Below are positions 4,266 to 44,667 of a DNA stretch of 64,000 bases, in pieces. Each line of letters opens with the position of its first letter. The first letter of the stretch is position 1. Source of the DNA: Pontibacter lucknowensis (GTDB lineage: Bacteria; Bacteroidota; Bacteroidia; Cytophagales; Hymenobacteraceae). The notes below the pieces were generated by a model. It made no database searches. It was not told the DNA's origin and worked only from the letters and a program-made list of their open reading frames with translations. Where the stretch lies: the NCBI RefSeq assembly GCF_900156415.1, contig NZ_FTNM01000005.1, forward strand, positions 248,001 to 312,000, in the 5' to 3' direction. A program made the translations under genes and the position numbers.

Positions 4266-5309
4266 ATGGAGAAGGAAATAACCATATATGATATAGCCAG
4301 GGAATTATCTATCTCCCCTACCACAGTAAGCAGGGGACTAAACAACCACCCGGCTGTAAACAAGAGTACCAAACAGAAAATATTTGATGCGGCAGCGCAG
4401 ATGGGCTACCGCTCCAATGCCTTCGCCAGCAACCTCCGAAAAAAGCGCACCAATACCATCGGTGTTATCGTGCCGCTCCTGAACAGTAATTTCCAGTCGT
4501 CGGTAATGGCGGGTATGGAAAAAGTGGCAAACGAGGCCGGCTATAACCTGATCATAAGCCAGTCACTGGAAAATGCGCAGAAGGAGATCGCCAATGCCAG
4601 AACCATGTTCGAGAGCCGTGTAGATGGGCTACTGGTTTCAGTGGCGTACGACACGGAGAATATCGACCATTTTGAGCCCTTCTTCAGCAAAGGCATACCG
4701 CTTTTGTTTTATGACCGGGTGCCAGAGCACAAGCAATGCACCAGTATTGTGATCAACAATATTCAGGCTGCGCACAAAGCTACCACACATCTACTCGAGC
4801 AAGGCTGCCAGCGCATTATACACATCAGCGGCAACCACCGCATCAATGTGTACAAAGACAGGCTCAAGGGATATAAATATGCTTTGATGGATCACAACAT
4901 CGCCTCTCGGGAGGATTATATCATAGAGACTGACCTAAGCGAGAAGGCGGGTGAAGAGGCAGTACAGAAAATTCTGGAGATGGACCCGCGGCCTGACGGC
5001 ATTTTCGTGGCCAACGACAACTGCGCCGTGAGCTGCATCAAGGCCCTCAAACAAGCCGGCATCGCTATACCTGATGATATTGCCGTCGTGGGCTTCAACA
5101 ACGACCCTATCACGCGCATCATCGAGCCTAACCTGACCTCTGTGAACTACCCTGGCTACGAGATGGGCGAAGTGGCTGTCAGAAGCCTGATCAATTATCT
5201 GGACGGCGTGTCAGATGTGAGCATCACCAACACTATCACACTAAACTCGGAACTGGTAGTGCGGGAATCTTCGCAGAAGAAAGAGAAAGCGAAGGCCAGA
5301 CTGGCCTAA
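4266..5309 (+). CDS. LacI-family transcriptional regulator of the xylan/xylose locus
   Basis: A 347-residue LacI/GalR protein. The N-terminus has the classic helix-turn-helix and hinge (YDIARELSISPTTVSRGLN, then an Asn-Leu-Arg-Lys-Lys segment), followed by the periplasmic-binding-like effector domain from about residue 62 (NTIGVIVPLLNS) to SVNYPGYEMGEVAV near the end. Such proteins bind palindromic operators and release or bind them on sensing a sugar. Two matching operators lie just upstream. It is divergent from susCD and heads the GH67-to-xylE series, so control of xylan use is the likely role; xylose, a xylo-oligosaccharide or a glucuronate derivative could be effector. A hairpin just after the stop separates it from GH67. 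Confidence 0.92.
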   Translation: MEKEITIYDIARELSISPTTVSRGLNNHPAVNKSTKQKIFDAAAQMGYRSNAFASNLRKKRTNTIGVIVPLLNSNFQSSVMAGMEKVANEAGYNLIISQSLENAQKEIANARTMFESRVDGLLVSVAYDTENIDHFEPFFSKGIPLLFYDRVPEHKQCTSIVINNIQAAHKATTHLLEQGCQRIIHISGNHRINVYKDRLKGYKYALMDHNIASREDYIIETDLSEKAGEEAVQKILEMDPRPDGIFVANDNCAVSCIKALKQAGIAIPDDIAVVGFNNDPITRIIEPNLTSVNYPGYEMGEVAVRSLINYLDGVSDVSITNTITLNSELVVRESSQKKEKAKARLA

Positions 5310-32106: not shown

Positions 32107-33501
32107 CTATACCTGCATGGTAGCGTGATGGGCAGCATACGCCGCAGGCAGTACTACCTCCATGATAGTACCTTTACCAACCTGCGAACTTACCCGAATC
32201 GTACCTTTGTGCGTTTCAATGATTTTCATGGCCAGCGGCAGCCCGATGCCAAAACCTTCGTAATTAGCCGTGTTGGAACCCCTGAAGTAAGAATTGAAAA
32301 TTTTGCTCTGATCAGAAGCGGGTATGCCAATGCCTGAGTCTGTTATCTGCAAGCTTATCTTCTGCCCTGTTGAGGTTAGTTTCAGGTATACAGCCTGGTT
32401 ATCTGAGTACTTAAACCCGTTCAGAATGATGTTGCAGATAGCCAGAATCAGCAATTGCTCATTACAATTAACAAACAGCATCGCCTCGTTTTCCGGGAAT
32501 TCGCTGTAGTCCATCTTAAGCTTATACCGCTCATCCATCTTACTCACCACCTCCTGCACCGACTCCAGTATTTCATCCATCCTGCGCACACTCCAGCCCT
32601 GGTCCTGCCCGTTCCCCTCGGCTTTTGCCAATTCCAGCAAGGTATTGATGATGTGCTTGAGCTTTTCGGTTTCCTGCATAATCATCTGTATCGAGTAGGT
32701 AGCCGGGTGCCCCTGCTCCAGTCGAAAAAGGGCTATCTCAGCCTCCCCGGCAATAACAGTGAGCGGCGTGCGGAGCGAATGTGAGATGTTGCTGACATAG
32801 GCCTGCTGTGCTTTAAAAGCCGTTTCTATCCGCTGCAGCATATCATTCAACGTATCCTGCAGTTCACTGATTTCGTCCAGGCTATGTTCTTTCTCAAGTC
32901 TGTCGTTCAGGTTGAAGGCATTGATACTGTTCACCTTCTTTATGATCTTGACCATGGGGCCAAACAGTCTTTTAGAGAAAAACACGGTGGTGAGCGTCAT
33001 CACAAACACAGCCGCCAGAAAGGCAATGGCCAGCGTTGTTTTCAGGCGTTTACGGTAAGCGTCACCCTCCACATCCCGTGCCGAAGACACCACCAGTATA
33101 TCCTCTTCTCCGGTGACATTTTCTCTAAACAGTCCGACATAATGCACTCCGTTTTCATAATGCCGGGCTCTTCCGTTACGGATAGTCTCCCAGTAAAATG
33201 ACTCGTCGAGTGGCAGTGAGGCTGGAAAATGAATTTGTTCGCTTCCTTTGTTGATACGCAGGATGTATTCCTCTTCATCTGCCAAATGCTGCAGCATACT
33301 GTTCTTAACGGCATAGTAATCTTCCGCTTTCTCTTGCTGCAGCACGGCGCTTGCCACAACAGTGGAGCTGTTCTCCAGACTCAGGAAGAAGTTATGCTGC
33401 CTGTAGCCAGACGACATGGAGTACATCACCAGGTTTATACCTAGTAATATCAAAGCCATCAGGCCGGTAAATAAAACGATCAGCGAATACTGTAATCTCA
33501 T
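32107..33501 (-). CDS. Membrane sensor histidine kinase
   Basis: A 464-residue kinase: N-terminal membrane helix, an extracytoplasmic domain of about 135 residues, a second helix near 165-190, HAMP linker, dimerisation box YVSNISHSLRTPLT with phospho-acceptor His241, and ATPase boxes CNIILNGFKY (N), DSGIGIP (G1) and GFGIGLPLAMKII (G2). It lies one base after the response regulator stop. Layout resembles CusS/heavy-metal or copper sensors, but the stimulus is unknown. It is near the urease array yet has its own terminator, so a nickel link is not supported directly. Confidence 0.93.
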   Translation of the reverse strand: MRLQYSLIVLFTGLMALILLGINLVMYSMSSGYRQHNFFLSLENSSTVVASAVLQQEKAEDYYAVKNSMLQHLADEEEYILRINKGSEQIHFPASLPLDESFYWETIRNGRARHYENGVHYVGLFRENVTGEEDILVVSSARDVEGDAYRKRLKTTLAIAFLAAVFVMTLTTVFFSKRLFGPMVKIIKKVNSINAFNLNDRLEKEHSLDEISELQDTLNDMLQRIETAFKAQQAYVSNISHSLRTPLTVIAGEAEIALFRLEQGHPATYSIQMIMQETEKLKHIINTLLELAKAEGNGQDQGWSVRRMDEILESVQEVVSKMDERYKLKMDYSEFPENEAMLFVNCNEQLLILAICNIILNGFKYSDNQAVYLKLTSTGQKISLQITDSGIGIPASDQSKIFNSYFRGSNTANYEGFGIGLPLAMKIIETHKGTIRVSSQVGKGTIMEVVLPAAYAAHHATMQV

Positions 33502-33502
33502 G

Positions 33503-34180
33503 CTACTGCGTCCTCATCACATAGCCTATACCTACCACCGTGTGGATCAGGCGCGGGCTAAAGTCTTTGTCTATCTTCTTGCGGAGGTAGTTGATGTACA
33601 CATCCACCACATTGGTGCCCATATCGAAGTCAGCGCCCCATACATGCTCCAGAATGTCCAGCCGTGGGAGCACCTTGCGTTTGTTCTTGATCAGGTACTC
33701 CAGCAGTTTGAACTCCCGCACAGTAAGCGCAATGACCTTGTTGTTGCGGGTCACCTCCATTGTGTCGAGGTTAACGCTTAAGTCCGCTATGGTCATCACA
33801 TTCTGCTGCACCATACTTCTGCCCGATCTTCTCACGAGGCTCTGCATGCGTGCCCGAAGTTCAGCCAGGTTGAAAGGCTTCACCATATAGTCATCAGCCA
33901 GATTGTTAAAGCCAGCCACTATATCCTGTGTAGAACCCAAGGCAGATAAAATGAGAATTGGCGTATCGGGGTCTGCATCCCGGATGCTTTTGCAAACCTC
34001 TAGTCCGCTCATGCCGGGCACCATTACATCGAGTATGATCAGGTCATATTGGTTCAGCCCGGCCATCTTTACAGCCGTAAAGCCATCCATCGCCACCGCA
34101 AATTCAATTCCCTCACCTTCAAGCCCTCGTTTGACAAGAGAGACTACTTTGGGCTCGTCTTCTAAGAACAATACTTTCAT
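33503..34180 (-). CDS. OmpR-family response regulator
   Basis: 225 residues: receiver domain with acidic EDEP, phospho-acceptor Asp51 (LIILDVMVPGMSG) and MVKPFN lysine, then an OmpR/PhoB winged helix (LTVREFKLLEYLIKNK, VDVYINYLRKKID). It is the first gene of the two-gene unit with the kinase at 32107. Targets unknown. Confidence 0.95.
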   Translation of the reverse strand: MKVLFLEDEPKVVSLVKRGLEGEGIEFAVAMDGFTAVKMAGLNQYDLIILDVMVPGMSGLEVCKSIRDADPDTPILILSALGSTQDIVAGFNNLADDYMVKPFNLAELRARMQSLVRRSGRSMVQQNVMTIADLSVNLDTMEVTRNNKVIALTVREFKLLEYLIKNKRKVLPRLDILEHVWGADFDMGTNVVDVYINYLRKKIDKDFSPRLIHTVVGIGYVMRTQ

Positions 34181-35131: not shown

Positions 35132-36268
35132 TTACTTTACGGTCAGCATTTCCTGCTTTGTCATTTTAGGCGCTTCGTACAGGTCAATCAGGGAGTGCGT
35201 GTACTTAAGGTATTCCATCGGGTACTTTATCTGAAACACCTTCGGGATGTTAGCGCCGGCAGGCACCAGCATCAGAGAAGACTTTCCGTCGATCTTTTCG
35301 CGCTGCAGGGCTATACCTTCGCGGTTGTCGAACTTCACGTCGAAGTAGTACAGGTATGGGTATACCCAGCTCACGTATTTGCTCTTGGAAGTACCCGATA
35401 GGCTTCTAATCTCCAGCGCTTCGTAGTTAGTGGCAATTGCCTGCTGGAATTCCACTGCGTTGAGTGGCACGTTGTTGAGCACTGGCATTACGTCGAACTG
35501 GCCGTCGAGCATTACCCATTTGTTCAGGTCCGGCAAGAACACCTCCAGTACCACGTGACCAGCTCCGTATTCTATGGTTTCAACCTCCTTCATTTTCAGA
35601 CCCATGGTGCGGGCAGGCAGGTCAATTGCATTCAGAGCAGCTGTCGTTACGATGCCGTATTCCACGCAGCGGAAGTTCTTGCCCTCTTTCACCTCGGCCA
35701 GAATGGTCAGGGCATCAGGGCTGCTTGGCTCGTTCATGCCATCGTGCTTCCACTGGCGGTGTACCCAATTCACAATACGCAGCGCCTTTTCAGTATCGTT
35801 TTTAGCACCGGCTACTAGCGCATCCAGCTGGTACTGCTTGCGCAGCGTTTGCAAAAACTCGTTATTCTGATTCTGCTCGTACAGGAAGGTATAGCCCGAC
35901 ACTTCCTGCGCCTTGTTGAATTTCAGAGCTTCGTGGCCGTAACCTTTAAACTTAGTCAGGGCATAGTCTTCCTCGTTGAGCTGCACATAGAACCGGTACG
36001 ACTTACCCGGCTTCACCTGGAAAGAAATAGAGTCCAGGTCGGTACGGAACATCACATACGTTTTCTTGTTGTGCACCGGCACCAACATTACATCAGGCGA
36101 AAGCTCTGGCATAATGCTCCAGGTACCTTTTGTCCACTCCTTACCGATCTTATAGTCGGCTTTGGCAGCGTTGGCTTTGATTACAGGCAGGCCTTTGTAC
36201 TTCTGCTGCGCTAAGGCAGGCATGGCCAACACGAACAACACGAACAGGATTGATGATAACTTTTTCAT
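35132..36268 (-). CDS. Secreted transglutaminase-like protein
   Basis: 378 residues with a signal peptide (ending AMPALAQ). The C-terminal half is a transglutaminase-like (papain-fold) domain whose triad is visible: Cys201 in NFRCVEYG, His238 in GAGHVVLEV and Asp255 in VMLDGQFD. The N-terminal part is probably a beta-sandwich. Such proteins usually act as peptidases or amidases on the envelope; the substrate is unknown. Its promoter region carries the same sigma-54-like element and paired boxes as the FtsX operon, so it should belong to that regulon although a terminator separates the two units. Confidence 0.87.
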   Translation of the reverse strand: MKKLSSILFVLFVLAMPALAQQKYKGLPVIKANAAKADYKIGKEWTKGTWSIMPELSPDVMLVPVHNKKTYVMFRTDLDSISFQVKPGKSYRFYVQLNEEDYALTKFKGYGHEALKFNKAQEVSGYTFLYEQNQNNEFLQTLRKQYQLDALVAGAKNDTEKALRIVNWVHRQWKHDGMNEPSSPDALTILAEVKEGKNFRCVEYGIVTTAALNAIDLPARTMGLKMKEVETIEYGAGHVVLEVFLPDLNKWVMLDGQFDVMPVLNNVPLNAVEFQQAIATNYEALEIRSLSGTSKSKYVSWVYPYLYYFDVKFDNREGIALQREKIDGKSSLMLVPAGANIPKVFQIKYPMEYLKYTHSLIDLYEAPKMTKQEMLTVK

Positions 36269-36394
36269 AATTTTATTTTGCGCTTAATACTGTGTTATAG
36301 ATGATTTTTTATTTCGCTTTTATGTGATCTTTATCTTTCTCTTACCTGCGGGCTTGGTCTCAACGCTATACCTGCTGGCCTGCTGAAAGAGTAT

Positions 36395-36411
36395 AAGAAA
36401 GATCGGTGCCA
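36395..36411 (-). promoter_or_regulatory. Sigma-54-like promoter of the transglutaminase-like gene
   Basis: Minus-strand TGGCACCGATCTTTCTT: a full TGGCAC -24 box and, at the right distance, TTTCT where the consensus has TTGC. The matching element before the FtsX gene is TGGCATTTTTATTTCTT. Confidence 0.65.
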
Positions 36412-36465
36412 AAAAAACACAAAATGCTATAAATCAATAAATTAACTATAAATAAAATACATACC

Positions 36466-36482
36466 TGTTCGCTTTCGATACA
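36466..36482. promoter_or_regulatory. Proximal activator box (TGTTCGCTTTCGATACA)
   Basis: One of four related 17-bp words in the window, consensus TGTnCGyTTyyGAnACA, placed 55 bp upstream of the sigma-54-like element. Likely binding site of the NtrC-type regulator at 41943. Confidence 0.65.
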
Positions 36483-36499
36483 CCTGCATCTGACACATC

Positions 36500-36516
36500 T
36501 GTGCGTTTCTGAGACA
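36500..36516. promoter_or_regulatory. Distal activator box (TGTGCGTTTCTGAGACA)
   Basis: Second box, start-to-start distance 34 bp from the proximal one, the same spacing as in the FtsX control region. Confidence 0.6.
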
Positions 36517-36572
36517 ATCTTTTACCTACCGGTTCGTCGCACAATTTCTGCTGCCAACAATAGCTACCAAAT

Positions 36573-36605
36573 AAAAAAACCCTGCAAGCTGGTTGCTTGC
36601 AGGGT
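36573..36605 (-). terminator. Terminator of the FtsX-S41-DUF4932 operon
   Basis: ACCCTGCAAGC (36579-36589) and GCTTGCAGGGT (36595-36605) give a perfect 11-bp stem with a 5-nt loop; seven T follow on the minus strand. Confidence 0.92.
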
Positions 36606-36651
36606 CTGTTTCTGACCTGATCAATCGCTCAGTCCAAAATGCTGTGCTGTT

Positions 36652-37845
36652 TTATCGTTTTGCCTGTAGCTCTTTGCTCCAGTCTAACATCTCTGTATAC
36701 AGTTCGTCTATGCTTATCTGTGGATTATCCTTGTAGAGTGAGATCAGCTTCTGGTTAAAATCACCGAACCGGGCAAAGCCTCTACTTTGCTCCATCTGGC
36801 GTTCCATCAAAGGTATAAACGTAGCAACATCCTCGGCAGAGAACTTGTCCAGGCAGTAGAGCGAATAGATACCCCAGGTCATGTACTCGTTGAACACGTT
36901 GTAAGGCGAGCTGTAGGCGCTGGTACCATTCATTTCCACAACCCACTTTCCTCTGTCTGAAAAAATCTCGTTAATCTGTTTAATGTACTTGTCTGATGTC
37001 GGATTCACGAAATTGTGATCGATTTCTGTGAATACCACACGCGTTTCCAGCATCTCATTTACCTGTGTGTTATATTGAGAATCGGACTCGGCTCTGCATA
37101 CGAACATTACTGTTTGGCTAAAGCCATTATCTTCGAAACTTTGGGTAGCATGCGCACCACCCACCAGGGGAGAAAACGTAACACGGTAGTTTCCATACTT
37201 AAATCTAAACTTACTCTCCAGCCAGGCCTGCATCTGGTCTATCGGATTCAGGGAGCGGTAAGTCTTTATCAACTCGTTATAATATGGCTGGTGCCGCTTG
37301 TAGAATTTTCGAAAATCAGACTTTTGGGCAAAGTCCTCAATCAATGCAAGATTGGCTTTGATGGGGTCGTCCTGATTATCAAAACCCATTTTCTGAATGA
37401 TGCCTTCGTTTTTAATGTTGCCTTTTTTATCGAACACGTAGGCGCAGGCATTCATTTTCATGGCATAGTAGTACCAGTAGCTGTCATTGTCGAACACCTC
37501 CGTAATGTGCTTGTTTACCACATCCATAACAGGGTGATTCTTGTACGGTGAGAAATGCGCCATCACCTCTCTATAGTAGGGTGTGGTCATATCCACCATG
37601 TTCGAGTCCTGCTGCCCTATGGTGGATATGGCCACCAGAATGTTTGCCAGTTCGTGCACTTCTGGCACCTCTACCGCAAATTTGCCTTGATGCTCACGAA
37701 TGTACTTCTCCGTAAAGTTTACGTTCTTAGGCACATCCACTATTCCGGCAATGGCTTTATCATGCCCTGCCTGCCATATATAGCCAGCAGATAGGACGCA
37801 GGCTAATGCTACTCCCAAAGTATATTTCAGGATCTTCTTCTTCAT
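36652..37845 (-). CDS. Secreted DUF4932-like protein, possibly a degenerate metalloprotease
   Basis: 397 residues with an N-terminal signal or anchor (ILKYTLGVALACVLSAGYIW). I recognise DUF4932-like features only loosely. The segment VVFTEIDHNFVNPTSDKY resembles the HExxH-NFVNP zinc region I associate with that family, but the first His is Thr (TEIDH), so activity is doubtful. A downstream EYMTWGIYSLYCLD segment could supply the third ligand Glu. It is the last gene of the operon, 24 bp after the S41 peptidase. Function unknown. Confidence 0.72.
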   Translation of the reverse strand: MKKKILKYTLGVALACVLSAGYIWQAGHDKAIAGIVDVPKNVNFTEKYIREHQGKFAVEVPEVHELANILVAISTIGQQDSNMVDMTTPYYREVMAHFSPYKNHPVMDVVNKHITEVFDNDSYWYYYAMKMNACAYVFDKKGNIKNEGIIQKMGFDNQDDPIKANLALIEDFAQKSDFRKFYKRHQPYYNELIKTYRSLNPIDQMQAWLESKFRFKYGNYRVTFSPLVGGAHATQSFEDNGFSQTVMFVCRAESDSQYNTQVNEMLETRVVFTEIDHNFVNPTSDKYIKQINEIFSDRGKWVVEMNGTSAYSSPYNVFNEYMTWGIYSLYCLDKFSAEDVATFIPLMERQMEQSRGFARFGDFNQKLISLYKDNPQISIDELYTEMLDWSKELQAKR

Positions 37846-37869
37846 GGTTTAGCTAAAAGTAGGTTTGGT

Positions 37870-39255
37870 TTATTTTGATGCCAGCTTCTGTCCTTTTAAG
37901 TGCTTAAGCGCACGCTCCAGTACCGGATCTTTCTTCTGGATGTAGTCCTGCAGCGTCCTTTTCACTTCTATGTCAGGCTTTACACCATAGCCCACAAACT
38001 CACGGCCGTCGGGGTAGGTGTCCTTCTTCGTACAGATCCTGGCTCCACCTCCTCCAGGCAGATCAAATATAAAAGGCTGGCCTGTGCTCCCAAAGGAGTT
38101 CTCGCCAATTTTGGTCATGTGCTTCTGGTTGTCGGCGTAGATCAGGAAATCTTCGGCGGCAGAAGCTGTGTTGTGCCCGATGAGTATGGCGGTAGGCACA
38201 ATTACCTTATCGTTCTGTTTTACTTTATTCTGGGCCGGACTGTAGTCAAACTCATGCATCAGCCTGTCCTGGAAAGCGTTCAATGATTTAGCGGCCCAGG
38301 CATTATCAACCGTATCTTTTGGAGCTGTAAATGCACCCCATGCTTTATAGCTAGCCAGGTGTTGGCGTGTGGAGTTTTTCGAACCGTACAGCAGCGTATC
38401 GGGGCTTAGGTAATCGAGTATCTCACGGCCTATGGTGGTAGAACCGCCGCCGTTGGAGCGCAGGTCTATTATCAGGACTTTCGCTTTGCGCAGCTCCGGA
38501 AGCTTCTCCAGGAACAGCTCATTTATCTTCGGATCATGGAAGCCATTCAGGGCCAGGTGTGCTGTCTGGTCGGGATACCACTTCAGGGTCAGCAGCTCCC
38601 GCTTTTCAACGGAAGGGAATACTTCCTTTTCGGCAGTTTTGTCATGCGTCAGTGTCAATGCTTTCACCTTACCTTTCGGGGTTCTGTAGGTGATGTCATA
38701 CTTTTCCCCTTTCAGACCTTTCAGCATATTACTAACGGCCCAATCCATCAGCACATAATCCGTAGAAGAGGAAATATAAGGCAACACGTGCTGCTTCAGA
38801 TAGTCCGCTGTCGGCTGTCCGTTCACCTCAATTATCTCACTGCCCACCGGCACCTCATCTTTTATGCTAAGGTTGGTCCTTGTGACAATGGCTTTGTTAT
38901 CGATGTTGCTCAGGAAAATCCTGTACTTGCCAAACATGTCGTTGTACAGCAGGGTATCGATGCTTTTCGGGAAATAGATGTTGGTGTGACCGTCGTTGAG
39001 CAGGGCACAGAACTTCTGCAGCTCGCGGTAGTACTCGTAATCGTTTTTGGTGTGCTGCACGATGTTGATCGCCTCACGGTAGGCATTGTCCCACTTGGTC
39101 CGGTCCACCTTATCTAGGTATACGAAATTATAATTTGCTTCCTGCCAGAACTTCGACAGCCCGTATACCTTATCAGCAGCAGACAGCGTGTTAGGAATCT
39201 GGGCTTTCGTGACAAAGCCTGTTAGCAACATCAGCAATAATAGAAACTTTTTCAT
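37870..39255 (-). CDS. S41-family peptidase (C-terminal-processing type)
   Basis: 461 residues with a signal peptide (LLLLMLLTGFVTKAQ). A PDZ-like part (VPVGSEIIEVNGQPT) precedes the tail-specific protease domain: VLIIDLRSNGGGSTTIGREI, the nucleophile region ILIGHNTASAAEDFLIYA with candidate Ser, and a Lys a short way on (NQKHMTKIGENSFGSTGQ). The late GGARICTKKDTYPDGREFVG segment is typical. It is periplasmic or surface exposed and lies 41 bp after the FtsX permease gene, in one operon. Confidence 0.9.
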   Translation of the reverse strand: MKKFLLLLMLLTGFVTKAQIPNTLSAADKVYGLSKFWQEANYNFVYLDKVDRTKWDNAYREAINIVQHTKNDYEYYRELQKFCALLNDGHTNIYFPKSIDTLLYNDMFGKYRIFLSNIDNKAIVTRTNLSIKDEVPVGSEIIEVNGQPTADYLKQHVLPYISSSTDYVLMDWAVSNMLKGLKGEKYDITYRTPKGKVKALTLTHDKTAEKEVFPSVEKRELLTLKWYPDQTAHLALNGFHDPKINELFLEKLPELRKAKVLIIDLRSNGGGSTTIGREILDYLSPDTLLYGSKNSTRQHLASYKAWGAFTAPKDTVDNAWAAKSLNAFQDRLMHEFDYSPAQNKVKQNDKVIVPTAILIGHNTASAAEDFLIYADNQKHMTKIGENSFGSTGQPFIFDLPGGGGARICTKKDTYPDGREFVGYGVKPDIEVKRTLQDYIQKKDPVLERALKHLKGQKLASK

Positions 39256-39296
39256 AGGGTTATTTTATACTTTTGGCTTGATTTTACATGAATGAC

Positions 39297-41705
39297 TTAC
39301 TCCGTCCGCAGCGAACCGATCGGGTCGGCCATGGCTGTTTTGATGGCGTGAAAACTGAGTGTAAACATGGCGATGATGATGGTGGCAGCAAAGGCTGATG
39401 CAAAGATCCACCAGCTAAGCTCAGTGCGGTGGGCATAATCGCTGAGCCAGGAGTTCATCATGTACCAGCTCAAAGGCAGCGCAATGACATTGGCAATGAG
39501 CACCAGCTTCAGGAAGTCTTTGCTGAGCATGAATACGATACCCGACACTGACGCACCCAGTACCTTGCGCACACCGATCTCCTTCTTGCGCTGCTCCGCT
39601 GTAAACAACGCCAGCCCAAACAGACCGAGGCAGGAAATCACGATGGCTATACCTGCAAAATAATTGGTCAGCTTTGCGATGATGACCTCACTCTTGTATA
39701 TGCGTTCAAAAACATCATCCAGGAAGTGATACTCAAAAGGGAAAGCCGGATTATACTTTTGCAACACTCCTTCAATGTCGGCAAGCGCACTTGATGTGTT
39801 TCCGGGCTCTACTCTGGCATACAGGTAGCTAACGTTATCCGGATCAAGCTTGATGATAAGAGGAGCAGCACCAACCTGCATTCTCCTGGATTGGAAATTC
39901 TCGATCACGCCAATAATGCGTCCTTCCACGCCCCACAACTTAAGCCACTGGCCCACTGGCTCACTCATCTGCATCAGCCGTACTGCCTCTTCGTTTATGA
40001 CATAGTTGGCAGTGTCTGCGCCAAAGTCTTTTGAGAAGGTCCTTCCTTCTTTCAACCTCATACCCATGGCCTCAATTAATCCGTAGTCTACGTGCATGAA
40101 GTCTATCAGCACATCTGCTCCGGACTCCTTCCCCTTCCACTCCACATCGCCTGTGTTAGACCCCATCCACAGTGGGTTCTGGTCTGATGCCGCTACTGCC
40201 GAAACACCATTTATTTTCAGCATGTCTTGTTTTATAACTTCGAGGCGGTCTCGTATTTGTCCTTCTATAGGTATGAGCACCACGTTTTCACGCTGCAGAC
40301 CGATGTCTTTGGTGCGAATGAAATGCAGTTGCAGGTATACAACCAGCGTACACACGATCAGCAATGCCGACAGCATGAACTGGAACACCACCAGTCCTTT
40401 GCGGAAGAGGGTAACACGATCGTTGAGCTTCACCGTGCCTTTGAGCACCACCACCGGATCGAAGGAGGACAGGAAGAAGGCCGGATAGCTGCCCGACACA
40501 ATGCCGGTGAACAAAGCAACTCCTACGAGCAGCAGGATAAGTTCTGGGTCGGTCAGATCAAAAACTACAGCCTTTCCTGTGAGCTCATTAAAAGCCGGAA
40601 CCAGCATGCCTGTCAGGTTGGCGGCAATAAATAGCGCCAGAAATGCGATCAGCACAGATTCTATCATAAACTGCCGCACCAGTGAGCCTTTGCTGGCGCC
40701 GATGGCTTTACGAACGCCTACCTCTTTAGCCCGCTTGGCGGATCGTGCTGTTGCCAGGTTCATAAAATTGATGCAGGCAATCAACAGCAGGAAAACAGCC
40801 ACTACCGAGAAGAGCCTGACATACATGATCACCCCGCTCTCTGTTTTCCCTTTCCGGAAGTCGGAGTACAGACGAATATCTTTTAAAGGCTGCACAAACA
40901 AGTCTGTATCACGGGTGCCTTTATCGCCCTGTTTCAGGAAGAGCTTGATCTTGTCGTTGAAAGCTTCGACATCTACCCCCGGCTGTAGCTGCACATAGGT
41001 CCGTATGGAGTAGTTGCCCCATTCATTGATCCAACTATGTTGCGCTTCGTAATCCACAAAAGGCATGATATAGTCAAACTGAAGGGAAGAGTTTTTCGGC
41101 ACTGTGTGCATCACGCCCGATACGGTATAGCTTTCGATATCATTCAGCTTCATCATGTTGCCTACCACCTCGGTAGTTCCGAATAATTTTCGGGCCAGGC
41201 TATCGCTGATGACTACTGACTTAGGTTGCATGAGTACTTGTGCTGCGTCACCGTGCAGCAGCGGGAAAGAGAATACCTGAAAGAAGGTGGAGTCTGCATA
41301 GTAGCCTTTTCCCTTTATTGCCTTCTCTTCATAGCTGAACAGGTTTTCCTGATCCCAGGTCACGCGAATGGCATGCTGCACCTCCGGCAGTCCCTGCTGC
41401 ATGGCCGGCCCCAACCTGCCCGGTCCGGACTCAGTCGTCAGGTCATCGGAGCCAGGGTAATGCTGCCTTCCCATCACCCGGTATAACTGATCCACATTGG
41501 CATGAAAACGGTCAAAACTTAACTCATCCTTCACCCACAGCAGGATCAGGATGCTACAGGTCATACCCAGGGCAAGTCCAGAGACGTTGATCAGGGAGAA
41601 ACCTTTGTGCCGCAGCAGGTTGCGGTAAGCCATTTTGAGGTAGTTCGTCAGCATACTATTCGTCATCAAATCATCAAACTCTTTTCTCAGGATACCAATC
41701 AGCAT
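39297..41705 (-). CDS. FtsX/MacB-family ABC transporter permease
   Basis: 802 residues: an N-terminal membrane helix after the motif YLKMAYRNLLRHKGFSLIN, a periplasmic MacB_PCD domain, a first FtsX block (FLLLIACINFMNLATARSAKRAKEVGVRK region), three further helices, a second periplasmic domain and a second FtsX block (EQRKKEIGVRKVLGAS). This duplicated layout is common in Bacteroidota, where the ATPase is often encoded elsewhere; none is seen here. Such permeases act in lipoprotein release, peptide efflux or envelope stress by mechanotransmission. The ATG at 41705 lies about 20 nt downstream of the predicted sigma-54 start, supporting that start. Confidence 0.92.
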   Translation of the reverse strand: MLIGILRKEFDDLMTNSMLTNYLKMAYRNLLRHKGFSLINVSGLALGMTCSILILLWVKDELSFDRFHANVDQLYRVMGRQHYPGSDDLTTESGPGRLGPAMQQGLPEVQHAIRVTWDQENLFSYEEKAIKGKGYYADSTFFQVFSFPLLHGDAAQVLMQPKSVVISDSLARKLFGTTEVVGNMMKLNDIESYTVSGVMHTVPKNSSLQFDYIMPFVDYEAQHSWINEWGNYSIRTYVQLQPGVDVEAFNDKIKLFLKQGDKGTRDTDLFVQPLKDIRLYSDFRKGKTESGVIMYVRLFSVVAVFLLLIACINFMNLATARSAKRAKEVGVRKAIGASKGSLVRQFMIESVLIAFLALFIAANLTGMLVPAFNELTGKAVVFDLTDPELILLLVGVALFTGIVSGSYPAFFLSSFDPVVVLKGTVKLNDRVTLFRKGLVVFQFMLSALLIVCTLVVYLQLHFIRTKDIGLQRENVVLIPIEGQIRDRLEVIKQDMLKINGVSAVAASDQNPLWMGSNTGDVEWKGKESGADVLIDFMHVDYGLIEAMGMRLKEGRTFSKDFGADTANYVINEEAVRLMQMSEPVGQWLKLWGVEGRIIGVIENFQSRRMQVGAAPLIIKLDPDNVSYLYARVEPGNTSSALADIEGVLQKYNPAFPFEYHFLDDVFERIYKSEVIIAKLTNYFAGIAIVISCLGLFGLALFTAEQRKKEIGVRKVLGASVSGIVFMLSKDFLKLVLIANVIALPLSWYMMNSWLSDYAHRTELSWWIFASAFAATIIIAMFTLSFHAIKTAMADPIGSLRTE

Positions 41706-41734
41706 AGGAGTGAGCAGTTAGTATGCAAAAGGGC

Positions 41735-41751
41735 AAGAAATAAAAATGCCA
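41735..41751 (-). promoter_or_regulatory. Sigma-54-like promoter of the FtsX operon
   Basis: Minus-strand TGGCATTTTTATTTCTT, matching the element at 36395 in the TGGCAy and TTTCTT parts and in spacing. Transcription would start about 20 nt before the FtsX ATG. Confidence 0.65.
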
Positions 41752-41804
41752 CAATCAAAAACCGCTGATTTAAAGGCACTTACCAAAACACCATCCTATC
41801 AATG

Positions 41805-41821
41805 TGTCCGCTTCCGATACA
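41805..41821. promoter_or_regulatory. Proximal activator box (TGTCCGCTTCCGATACA)
   Basis: Lies 54 bp upstream of the FtsX sigma-54-like element; related to the boxes at 36466, 36500 and 41839. Confidence 0.65.
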
Positions 41822-41838
41822 CATACTGACGATACACC

Positions 41839-41855
41839 TGTGCGCTTTCGCAACA
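41839..41855. promoter_or_regulatory. Distal activator box (TGTGCGCTTTCGCAACA)
   Basis: Start-to-start 34 bp from the proximal box, as in the other control region. Situated about 90 bp before the regulator gene on the plus strand, so autoregulation is possible. Confidence 0.65.
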
Positions 41856-41942
41856 TATGGTGCAGGGCGCAAAAAACTGGCTTTACCTAAGGTAAAATTG
41901 CGAAATACTAATTATCTTCGAATTGAAATTTAACTTTTGCAT

Positions 41943-43319
41943 ATGGCTGCAGTTAAAAACGGACGGGTATTGGTAGTCGACGATGAGACAGATGTGCTCT
42001 TCGCCATGAAAATGTTGCTGAAGGCGGAGGTAAAGGAGGTCGTAACGGAGAAAAACCCGGAGAACCTGATGAGGCTGCTGGATAAGGAGCGTTTCGATGT
42101 CATCTTCCTGGATATGAACTTCAAGAGCGCGCTGCACACCGGCAACGAAGGCATCTACTGGCTCAGCCGAATACGTGAGAAAGACCCTAACGCCACCGTG
42201 ATCCTGATCACAGCTTATGGTGATGTAGAACTGGCCGTGCGCTCACTCAAAGAAGGCGCTTACGATTTTATAGTGAAGCCCTGGCACAACGACAAGCTGC
42301 TCGAGACCCTGCACCATGCCCTGGAGTCCAAGCAGCTGAAACAGAAAGGCCAGGCTGCGAAGCTCAAAACTGACAATGCTATACCTATACTTGGTGAGTC
42401 TGACGCCATACGGGAGGTGCTGTATAAGATCGACAAGATAGCGCCTACAGAAGCCAATGTATTGATACTGGGTGAAAACGGCACTGGCAAAGAGCTGGTG
42501 GCTCGGGCATTGCACCAGAAGTCTTTCCGGGCCGACAAGCCATTTGTAAGTGTAGATGTCGGTGCTCTAACCGATTCACTGTTCGAGAGTGAGTTGTTCG
42601 GCTATAAAAAAGGGGCTTTTACGGATGCCAAGGAAGACCGCATCGGTCGCTTTGAGGCTGCCAATGGTGGCACGCTGTTTCTGGATGAGATCGGTAACAT
42701 TTCACTGCCCATGCAGGCTAAGCTGCTCACCGTGCTGCAAAACCGACAGGTAACACCGCTGGGTTCTAATCAGCCTATACCTGTTGATATCCGACTGATC
42801 ACGGCGACCAATGCGCCCATCTACCAGTTGGCAGCCCAGAACCAGTTCCGCAAAGATTTGATCTACCGTATCAACACGGTGGAGATTTTGCTGCCTCCTT
42901 TGCGCGAACGCGGTGCCGACGTGGAGTTACTGGCACAGCACTTTGCCGCTTACTACGCCCCTAAAAATCATAAGGCTATACCTGCGTTCGACCCTGCTAC
43001 GCTCAAGAAGCTGCGACAGCACGCCTGGCCGGGTAACATCCGTGAGCTACAGCATGCTGTGGAGCGGGCCATCATCATGGCTGAAGGCAATGTGCTACAG
43101 CCACAGGACTTCAGCTTCTCGGCCATGGAGTTTGATGCACCTCAGACTACACCTGCCGGTGCACTGGTGTTTGACCAGCAGATGCCGCTCAGCGAGATTG
43201 AACGGGAGACGATCCGCCGTGTGATTGAGAAGAACAAAGGCAACATTTCCAAATCAGCCAAAGAACTGGGGCTTACCCGTACCGCCCTGTACCGCCGCCT
43301 GAACAAGCATGAAATTTAA
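41943..43319 (+). CDS. NtrC-family sigma-54-dependent response regulator
   Basis: Receiver (VVDDETD, phospho-acceptor Asp57 in [22 protein letters not shown]), AAA+ domain (Walker A GENGTGKE, Walker [10 protein letters not shown], arginine-finger region [10 protein letters not shown]) and a Fis-type helix-turn-helix ([20 protein letters not shown]). The sigma-54 contact loop reads GAFTDA instead of GAFTGA. The frame opens with TTG at 41937; I take the ATG at 41943. It is divergent from the FtsX operon with paired boxes between, and overlaps its kinase gene by 11 bp. It is the likely activator of both the FtsX operon and the transglutaminase-like gene. Confidence 0.95.
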
Positions 43320-44667
43320 GCGCCTCGAGTTTGGCCTGCTGATCCGGTTCATCCTGCTGCTGGGCATGATGCTGCTGACTTCGCTATACCTGGTGAAGTT
43401 CACCTGGCTGCAGGTTGGGTCTGGCATCCTGGTCATGCTGGCGCAGGTATGGGAGTTGGCCAACTACGTCACCCGAAGCAATTACGAGATGGCTAAGTTC
43501 CTGCAGGCAGTCAGGCAGCGGGACTTTACGCAGCAGTTCAACGAAAACCCATCCAATCACTCACTACGGCCCCTCCACCAGGCTTTCAACCAGATCAGCC
43601 ATACCTTTAAGCAGCTGCAGATCGAGAAAGAGGCGCAGTTTCACTACATGCAGACCATCCTGCAGCTGATTGACACCGGCATCATGGCCTATGACGAGGA
43701 GGGGCAGGTAGAATGGGTGAACGATGCTTTTAAGAAGATACTAGGTATACCGCATCTCAAAAGTCTCGACAACCTGGAGCGTCGCTACCCACAGCTGCTG
43801 GAGGCGATCCTGGAGCTGCAGCCCGGAGAGAACAAACTGCTGAAGCAAAAGCTACCCCAAGGCACCACCCAGCTGCTCCTCTCCGCTACCGCTTTCAGCA
43901 TGCAAAACCATCACCTCACGTTGGTTGCCATCAAGAACGTGAGTTCTGCCGTGGATGAAACTGAAACGGAAGCCTGGCAAAAACTGCTGCGTGTAATGAC
44001 CCACGAGATCATGAACTCGGTGGCACCCATTGCATCGCTGGCCGACTCGCTGGGCAAGCACCTGCAGGCGGAGCGCGAAGAGCAGGAAGCACAGGGGCAG
44101 CTACTGCCGAACCACGAGCTGCTGCAGGACACGGAGGAGGGAATCGCTATCATCAGGAAGCGAAGCGAAGGCTTGCTGCGCTTTGCCCACTTCTACCGCA
44201 ACCTCAACAAGTCGCAGCAAATCCTGCTGACCACTGTTTATGTGAAGGAGCTGTTCAACAGCATCAATGCCCTTATGCGTCCCCGACTGGAGGAACAAGG
44301 TATAGCCCTCAGCTGCCAGGTGTCGTCGCCGGACCTGACCCTGAACGGCGATGTGAATCTACTGGAGCAAGTGCTGATCAACCTCATCCTGAATGCGGCA
44401 CGTGCTGTAAAAGAGGTGGCGGAACCACAGGTATGGCTAACTGCCGGTGAGTTGGAAAACGGCAAGGTATACATCCAGGTACGGGACAATGGAACAGGTA
44501 TACCCGAAGAACTGATGGAAAGTATTTTCATCCCGTTCTTCACCTCTCACAAAGACGGCTCAGGTATAGGCCTCAGCCTGGCCAAGCACATCATGCTGCT
44601 GCACAAAGGCTCCATTCAGGTCGAGTCGCAGGAGGGCGTGGGCTCTGTCTTTACCCTTACTTTCTAG
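43309..44667 (+). CDS. Membrane sensor histidine kinase, NtrB/NtrY type
   Basis: 452 residues: two closely spaced membrane helices near residues 8-25 and 30-50 with almost no outside loop, a PAS-like segment (MQTILQLIDTGIMAYDEEG, VNDAFKKILG), then phospho-acceptor His232 in MTHEIMNSVAP, N box NLILNAARAV, DNGTGIP and GSGIGLSLAKHIM. The small membrane part suggests sensing within the membrane, as for envelope-stress kinases. It is translationally coupled to the NtrC-type regulator. Confidence 0.93.
   Translation: MKFKRLEFGLLIRFILLLGMMLLTSLYLVKFTWLQVGSGILVMLAQVWELANYVTRSNYEMAKFLQAVRQRDFTQQFNENPSNHSLRPLHQAFNQISHTFKQLQIEKEAQFHYMQTILQLIDTGIMAYDEEGQVEWVNDAFKKILGIPHLKSLDNLERRYPQLLEAILELQPGENKLLKQKLPQGTTQLLLSATAFSMQNHHLTLVAIKNVSSAVDETETEAWQKLLRVMTHEIMNSVAPIASLADSLGKHLQAEREEQEAQGQLLPNHELLQDTEEGIAIIRKRSEGLLRFAHFYRNLNKSQQILLTTVYVKELFNSINALMRPRLEEQGIALSCQVSSPDLTLNGDVNLLEQVLINLILNAARAVKEVAEPQVWLTAGELENGKVYIQVRDNGTGIPEELMESIFIPFFTSHKDGSGIGLSLAKHIMLLHKGSIQVESQEGVGSVFTLTF

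Follow-up and report, generated by a model that had tools for sequence, protein, structure and literature searches.

The control regions described here lie in a stretch of 64,000 nucleotides from Pontibacter lucknowensis (contig NZ_FTNM01000005.1, positions 248,001 to 312,000 of the forward strand), referred to below as the window. Two promoters on its minus strand, one in front of an operon for an FtsX/MacB-like permease, an S41 peptidase and a DUF4932 protein and the other in front of a transglutaminase-like gene, consist of a sigma-54-type promoter word followed upstream by a pair of 17-bp boxes of the form TGT-N11-ACA. The box pair very probably serves as the enhancer, or upstream activating sequence, for the NtrC-type two-component sigma-54 activator encoded next to it, which would thereby control FtsX/MacAB-type envelope genes. 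This assignment follows from the observation that the pair travels with the regulator through several groups of the Bacteroidota, as is to be expected of the regulator's own control site.

An initial annotation of the DNA had described the same layout of promoter word and paired boxes at the two promoters, which are 5.3 kb apart, and all words lie where it placed them (Table 1). Both boxes of site 1 (36466-36482 and 36500-36516) and the promoter-proximal box of site 2 (41805-41821) match its consensus TGTNCGYTTYYGANACA without a mismatch, the fourth box deviating at one position, and the boxes of a pair are 34 bp apart, start to start, at both sites, as claimed. The claimed agreement to 1 bp of the distance between promoter word and first box likewise stood; the values of 55 and 54 bp are differences of coordinates, while the intervening DNA amounts to 54 bp at site 1 and 53 bp at site 2. 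With up to two mismatches, the consensus matches the window four times, compared with a mean of 0.75 and a maximum of three in shuffled sequences, none of 100 of which reached four. In the whole genome of P. lucknowensis (4.47 Mb) the pair (N17 gap, up to three mismatches) is present at the two window sites only and in the backwards-read control nowhere, which settles the question, raised in the initial annotation, whether it is scattered at random over the genome. Single boxes with at most one mismatch occur at chance level (15 places in the genome versus 16 in the control); it is thus the pair that carries the signal, and a wider regulon of single boxes was rejected. A chance origin of the pair is ruled out by the whole-genome scan, the backwards-read controls and the co-occurrence with the regulator. 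The spacers between the boxes (36483-36499 and 41822-41838) contain, next to the distal box, the word AGGTGT, which is conserved across the genus and is possibly an extra half-site.

Within the family, the pair was found in 37 of 204 genomes, with one match of the backwards-read control (G163). In the genus Pontibacter it is present in 34 of 50 genomes, which are exactly the 34 that encode an orthologue of the regulator (77-100% identity), and absent from the 16 others (34/34 versus 0/16; Fisher p 2e-13), in which a search at E 1e-150 detects no homologue closer than about 60% identity; one of these 16, G163, is only 87% complete. In all 34 genus neighbourhoods the pair sits between the regulator and the divergent FtsX gene, so that it is indeed conserved upstream of orthologous FtsX genes, a point on which the initial annotation had made its proposal depend. 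Omitted from the counts are a three-mismatch match in G180:C14, G081 (three mismatches, with the regulator on another contig) and G141, where pair and regulator each lie at a contig end.

The geometry is equally constrained. At the 43 genus sites, 34 on the FtsX side and nine second sites, the array of two boxes is separated from TGGCAY by 53 bp in 30 cases, 52 bp in 11 and 54 and 51 bp in one each, and TTTC follows TGGCAY in 41 of the 43. The offset of the array from the regulator start varies between 138 and 670 bp in the genus, which indicates that the position of the array is fixed relative to the target promoter and not to the regulator gene. The columns of the array carry on average 1.29 bits of information versus 0.17 bits in the 40-bp upstream flank. 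These figures bear on the view that the two control regions of the window are alike only through a recent duplication of the segment, with no need for a shared function. The two 51-bp arrays do resemble each other beyond the boxes; across the 43 genus sites, however, mean pairwise ungapped identity is 0.76 in the array as against 0.32 in the 20-bp flank and 0.42 in the first 45 bp of the spacer to the promoter, and a second array in front of the transglutaminase gene is seen mainly where no other cassette gene lies directly before it. Already disfavoured by an array conservation that exceeds that of the flanks in many species, the duplication view is to be regarded as extremely improbable.

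A third box, apparent in some arrays (L111, L116, L117) as pairs with four or six mismatches, was taken as chance. One genome, G160, possesses a second, unlinked 34-bp array (locus L119, G160:C15:70397-80447, at 5001-5051 of the minus strand) with TGGCAT at 52 bp, downstream of which there is only a 74-residue FtsX-like match; as no open reading frame (ORF) of at least 60 residues covers this match, the copy is a remnant at best.

As to the predicted second target, the transglutaminase-like gene, 24 of the 50 genus genomes have it (E 1e-60), always at a distance of no more than 8 kb from the regulator, and all 16 genus genomes without the regulator lack it. Eight genus loci have a second pair in front of it. 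When the 24 genus loci and L131, a locus of genus g3, are considered together, none of the 13 transglutaminase genes that lie at most 105 bp from the preceding cassette gene has a pair of its own, in contrast to 10 of the 12 at a distance of at least 278 bp. The two exceptions are L099, which has a degenerate pair and TGGCAT by eye, and L131, which has none; in L107 and L114 the gene is preceded by pairs with a spacing of 33 bp, which stand outside the 43-site counts. From this distribution (0/13 close versus 10/12 distant), the transglutaminase gene seems to be kept under the same control, either as a member of the operon or by an array of its own.

Beyond the genus, 43 of 46 loci from other genera of the family, with regulators of 62-74% identity, possess the pair. 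Of 20 further loci in a mixed batch, with identities of about 58-63%, four have it (L192-L195, three from genus g6 and one from Hymenobacter) and 16 do not, these being 13 genus paralogues and three loci of genus g5; the reversed control gave no match in either group. The boxes of these 47 pairs are 22-23 bp (44 pairs), 33 bp (two) or 34 bp (one) apart. A TGGCAY word at a distance of 20-130 bp accompanies 41 of 46 pairs on the promoter side, with a distance of exactly 62 bp for 28 and 75 bp for 11, and three of 46 on the mirror side; L131, with a distance of 62 bp and a weak promoter, is counted neither here nor among the 43 genus sites. In the Hymenobacter subgroup with the word at 75 bp (L165-L176), nine of 12 loci also display RGGCAY at 62-63 bp, which is taken as the true -24 word.

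On the level of the phylum, 22 of 80 loci with regulator homologues from named genomes have the pair next to the homologue, with one weak match (L257) in 80 for the reversed control. Pairs of 21-22 bp spacing occur outside the family in Mucilaginibacter, Sediminibacterium, Leadbetterella, Aequorivita, Cryomorpha and Leeuwenhoekiella, and three more Flavobacteriaceae loci (L235, L238, L243) have weak pair scores. In the 13 named loci measured, L230 (a repeat of L194) and L220-L227 being left aside, TGGCAY is found at 53 bp (12) or 51 bp (one) and on the mirror side in none. A scan of DNA alone with the 22-bp pattern returned 27 places in 14 of 395 genomes and none for the control. Twelve of these adjoin a regulator homologue, 12 precede an FtsX-like gene, one precedes a gene which by its translation is ABC-ATPase-like, and two (L300, L301) adjoin neither. 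When L306, which repeats L146, is dropped and four of the remaining 26 places that fall under the score limit are set aside, TGGCAY is on the promoter side in 17 of 22 versus one of 22 on the mirror side, at 50-53 bp in 16 of 22. Among the 14 genomes with the pair, 13 encode a close homologue of the regulator, versus 21 of the 381 others (Fisher p 2e-14); the threshold applied, E 1e-155 or better, also admits paralogues. The regulon, called local in the initial annotation, is local in P. lucknowensis itself, but in other genomes the pair is also found at FtsX-like genes that do not neighbour the regulator. In Hymenobacter, Adhaeribacter and the Flavobacteriaceae the first ORF after the array encodes, judged by translation, mostly a conserved HlyD/MacA-like adaptor, and the two operons checked against Pfam, L132 and L244, contain HlyD, ABC ATPase and MacB_PCD/FtsX permease genes, with an additional outer-membrane efflux gene in L244.

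A tree was computed for a choice of 85 regulator-like proteins, 11 of the 34 genus rows among them. The 39 proteins with the pair, defined as a score above 20 in the 1 kb upstream, all belong to one clade of 62 (support 100/100), and none of the 23 proteins outside this clade has it; the tree is midpoint-rooted and some of its branches are long. Several observations weigh against the enhancer assignment, part of them concerning the regulator and part the sigma factor. To the former belong the 23 of 62 clade members without a scored pair, namely all 10 from Sphingobacterium (10/10), 10 from the Flavobacteriaceae, L133, L134 and the paralogue of the window genome itself (L055), where the operator has so been lost or changed. 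Three Adhaeribacter-group orthologues (L133, L134, L140) show no pair in the 4 kb upstream, L133 and L134 having no FtsX-like match within 9 kb upstream either, and L192-L195 have CGGCAC instead of TGGCAY as their best word, at 53 bp. The pairless clade members would agree with the proposal that the boxes bind a different regulator, encoded elsewhere and co-inherited with the cassette by happenstance, the more so as the boxes are assigned to the adjacent regulator from sequence. On the other hand, presence of the pair tracks presence of the regulator throughout the genus, and the pair adjoins the regulator even where the targets differ, with FtsX as the first gene in Pontibacter and an HlyD-like gene as the first in Hymenobacter and the Flavobacteriaceae, which makes a different regulator very improbable.

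In the case of the sigma factor, the -12 element is the weak spot. G at -13 is absent from all 43 genus sites, which hence do not possess the canonical -12 GC (TTGC), and outside the genus the -12 word is more degenerate (TTTC, TTAC, TTCG, TTGA, TTCC and others), while 71 of the 81 extra-genus sites scanned (loci L132-L326) have TGGCAY. Neither is TTGGCAY-N5-TTNC clearly enriched in the genome of P. lucknowensis, with 23 places versus 18 in the control, and the genome-wide word was consequently not used as support. The activator also deviates from the textbook case, since its loop reads GAFTDA, with the threonine retained, instead of the exact GAFTGA; among 73 pair-bearing rows, the loop is GAFTDA, GSFTDA or GAYTDA in 62 and GAFTGA in two, nine having no match to the search word. 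The missing G, the variation at -12 in lineages that keep TGGCAY and the lack of a clear genomic excess could be accommodated if the boxes were the regulator's operator but TGGCAY-N5-TTTCTT were read by another sigma factor or constituted a further activator site. This is improbable given that C at -12 is kept in 42 of the 43 genus sites, that the regulator has a full sigma-54 activator domain with its FTDA loop, that the genome encodes one RpoN (a single PF04552 match, E 3.7e-58) and that TGGCAC, according to a recent survey, is the -24 word described for sigma-54 promoters (PMC12316311). We infer sigma-54 use from the conserved -24 word, the locked distance and the class of the activator; the variable -12 word outside the genus may point to a relaxed -12 rule in the Bacteroidota. 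As the -12 element is non-canonical and a clear excess of the sigma-54 word is lacking, sigma-54 use, phosphorylation of the regulator and its binding to the boxes are inferences.

For the gene of the regulator itself, transcription from an ordinary housekeeping promoter is probable. An element of the type TAnnTTYG, which we take to be the -7 motif of Bacteroidota housekeeping promoters, is located between the pair and the regulator gene in 33 of 35 loci (the 34 genus loci and L131), the copy in the window being listed in Table 1, and TGGCAY directed toward the regulator is found in none of the 35. These two counts suggest the housekeeping promoter, and sigma-54 autoregulation of the regulator was rejected. 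A paralogous activator of about 60% identity (L177-L191 and L196; the copy of P. lucknowensis at G000:C8:3325-4668) has no TGT-N11-ACA pair. In 15 of 16 loci, the last 700 bases before the gene include a TGGCAY that faces the paralogue itself and lies at -48 to -67; most loci have a second TGGCAY directed away at about -210 with GTGCG/CGCAC palindromes, seen by eye, in between. By these words the paralogous activator looks self-activated, unlike the regulator of the window.

The genes around the two control regions are compiled in Table 1. The initial annotation's divergent NtrC-type regulator with its kinase beside the second site is borne out by the domains: Response_reg, Sigma54_activat (PF00158) and HTH_8 of the regulator are all above the Pfam cut-offs, and the partner kinase matches HATPase_c and PAS, with no HisKA match at E 0.001. 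The regulator likely starts with the ATG at 41943, the ORF being listed from a TTG at 41937; the ORF of the FtsX gene opens at 41705, with its start probably at 41654, which fits the N-terminus of its relatives. Among the nine window proteins scanned with Pfam there is no HlyD or ABC ATPase match. The genome has 13 PF00158 matches, nine of them counted as true activators (E 1e-65 or better) and four weak. A mobile origin was rejected, as a comparison of 36380-36520 with the plasmid collection, the sole collection queried, gave no match. At 32107-34180 on the minus strand, downstream of the transglutaminase-like gene, lie genes for a response regulator of the OmpR type and for a kinase with a HAMP domain.

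Table 1. Control elements and genes of the locus, in coordinates of the window.
Feature	Coordinates	Strand	Remark
Sigma-54-type promoter word TGGCAC-N5-TTTCTT	36395..36411	-	site 1, upstream of the transglutaminase-like gene
Box 1, TGTTCGCTTTCGATACA	36466..36482	+	site 1, promoter-proximal
Box 2, TGTGCGTTTCTGAGACA	36500..36516	+	site 1, distal
Sigma-54-type promoter word TGGCAT-N5-TTTCTT	41735..41751	-	site 2, upstream of the FtsX operon
Box 1, TGTCCGCTTCCGATACA	41805..41821	+	site 2, promoter-proximal
Box 2, TGTGCGCTTTCGCAACA	41839..41855	+	site 2, distal; one mismatch to the consensus of the initial annotation
TATCTTCG	41913..41920	+	resembles the -7 element of Bacteroidota housekeeping promoters
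Transglutaminase-like gene	35132..36268	-	transglutaminase core (Pfam); predicted second target
DUF4932 gene	36652..37845	-	Pfam; predicted target operon
S41 peptidase gene	37870..39255	-	Pfam; predicted target operon
FtsX/MacB_PCD permease gene	39297..41654	-	Pfam; first gene of the predicted target operon
Regulator gene	41943..43319	+	receiver, sigma-54 activator AAA+ and Fis-type helix-turn-helix (HTH) domains; GAFTDA motif
Partner sensor kinase gene	43309..44667	+	PAS and HATPase_c (Pfam); overlaps the regulator gene

The layout is reminiscent of the NtrC-type enhancer of glnAp2 in enteric bacteria, where a pair of dyad-like 17-bp boxes, separated by about three helical turns, is likewise situated about 90-120 bp upstream of a -24/-12 promoter and is served by an activator of receiver, AAA and Fis-type HTH domains with a partner kinase. 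Differences are the half-site, which is here TGT-N11-ACA unlike in the NtrC consensus, the FtsX/MacAB-type envelope genes as targets, the -12 word TTTC and the GAFTDA loop. The targets of L132 and L244, with their adaptor, ATPase and permease genes, are like MacAB-TolC tripartite exporter operons. In contrast, the window operon is composed of FtsX, S41 peptidase and DUF4932 genes, and no tripartite set was found among the proteins scanned.

In the literature, a 2025 survey reported that predicted sigma-54 promoters are enriched at FtsX-like permeases (COG0577) in Bacteroidia and called this the first evidence (PMC12316311). The broad target class, the deduced sigma factor and the phylum are the same as here; unlike the present analysis, the available part of the survey gives no activator, enhancer or geometry for FtsX-like permease genes and states that activator-promoter specificity is not available for every organism that it covers (PMC12316311). 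Its activator filter, as described there, kept only sequences with GAFTGA, whereas the window regulator has GAFTDA. In Flavobacterium psychrophilum, a study mapping 5' ends ties sigma-54 to protein quality control, envelope stress and gliding (PMC9723704). These Bacteroidota sigma-54 promoters share the tie to envelope stress and, in the part of the study at hand, are left unassigned to activators, three candidates being mentioned (PMC9723704). A two-component sigma-54 enhancer system is of a known kind, and this member, its operator and its geometry were not found described in searches of open-licence papers.

Mechanistically, the kinase would phosphorylate the regulator, dimers of which would bind the two 17-bp TGT-N11-ACA boxes, with the box centres estimated near -88 and -122 from the expected transcription start when anchored on the -24 word. 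The assembled AAA+ ring would then contact sigma-54 RNA polymerase at TGGCAY-N5-TTTCTT and open the promoter, by which the FtsX-S41-DUF4932 operon and, through the second copy of the control region, the transglutaminase-like gene would be switched on. Related regulators of the same clade in other Bacteroidota would drive MacA/HlyD-MacB-FtsX exporter operons and scattered FtsX-like genes, and because of these targets a response to envelope stress or to exported toxicants is the likely role. Each of the two differences in spacing, 22-23 versus 33-34 bp between the boxes and about 53 versus 62 bp from the boxes to the promoter, comes near to one turn of the helix.

Tentatively, and with somewhat more doubt than confidence, it may be proposed that one activator clade commands a MacAB/FtsX envelope regulon across the Bacteroidota, in which spacings have shifted mainly by about helical turns and the G at -13, normally needed by the sigma-54 polymerase, has been given up. 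If true, a relaxed promoter class would be paired with GAFTDA-type activators. Bacteroidota have many FtsX/MacB-like permease genes and several sigma-54 activators (nine by the count in P. lucknowensis), and little was found in print on which sigma-54 activator controls what in this phylum. For one such activator there is now an operator of its own, the geometry of its promoters and a list of targets open to gene-by-gene testing in many species, together with a natural series of helical-turn changes. Part of the published statistical link between sigma-54 and FtsX-like permeases in Bacteroidia (PMC12316311) may thereby be explained.

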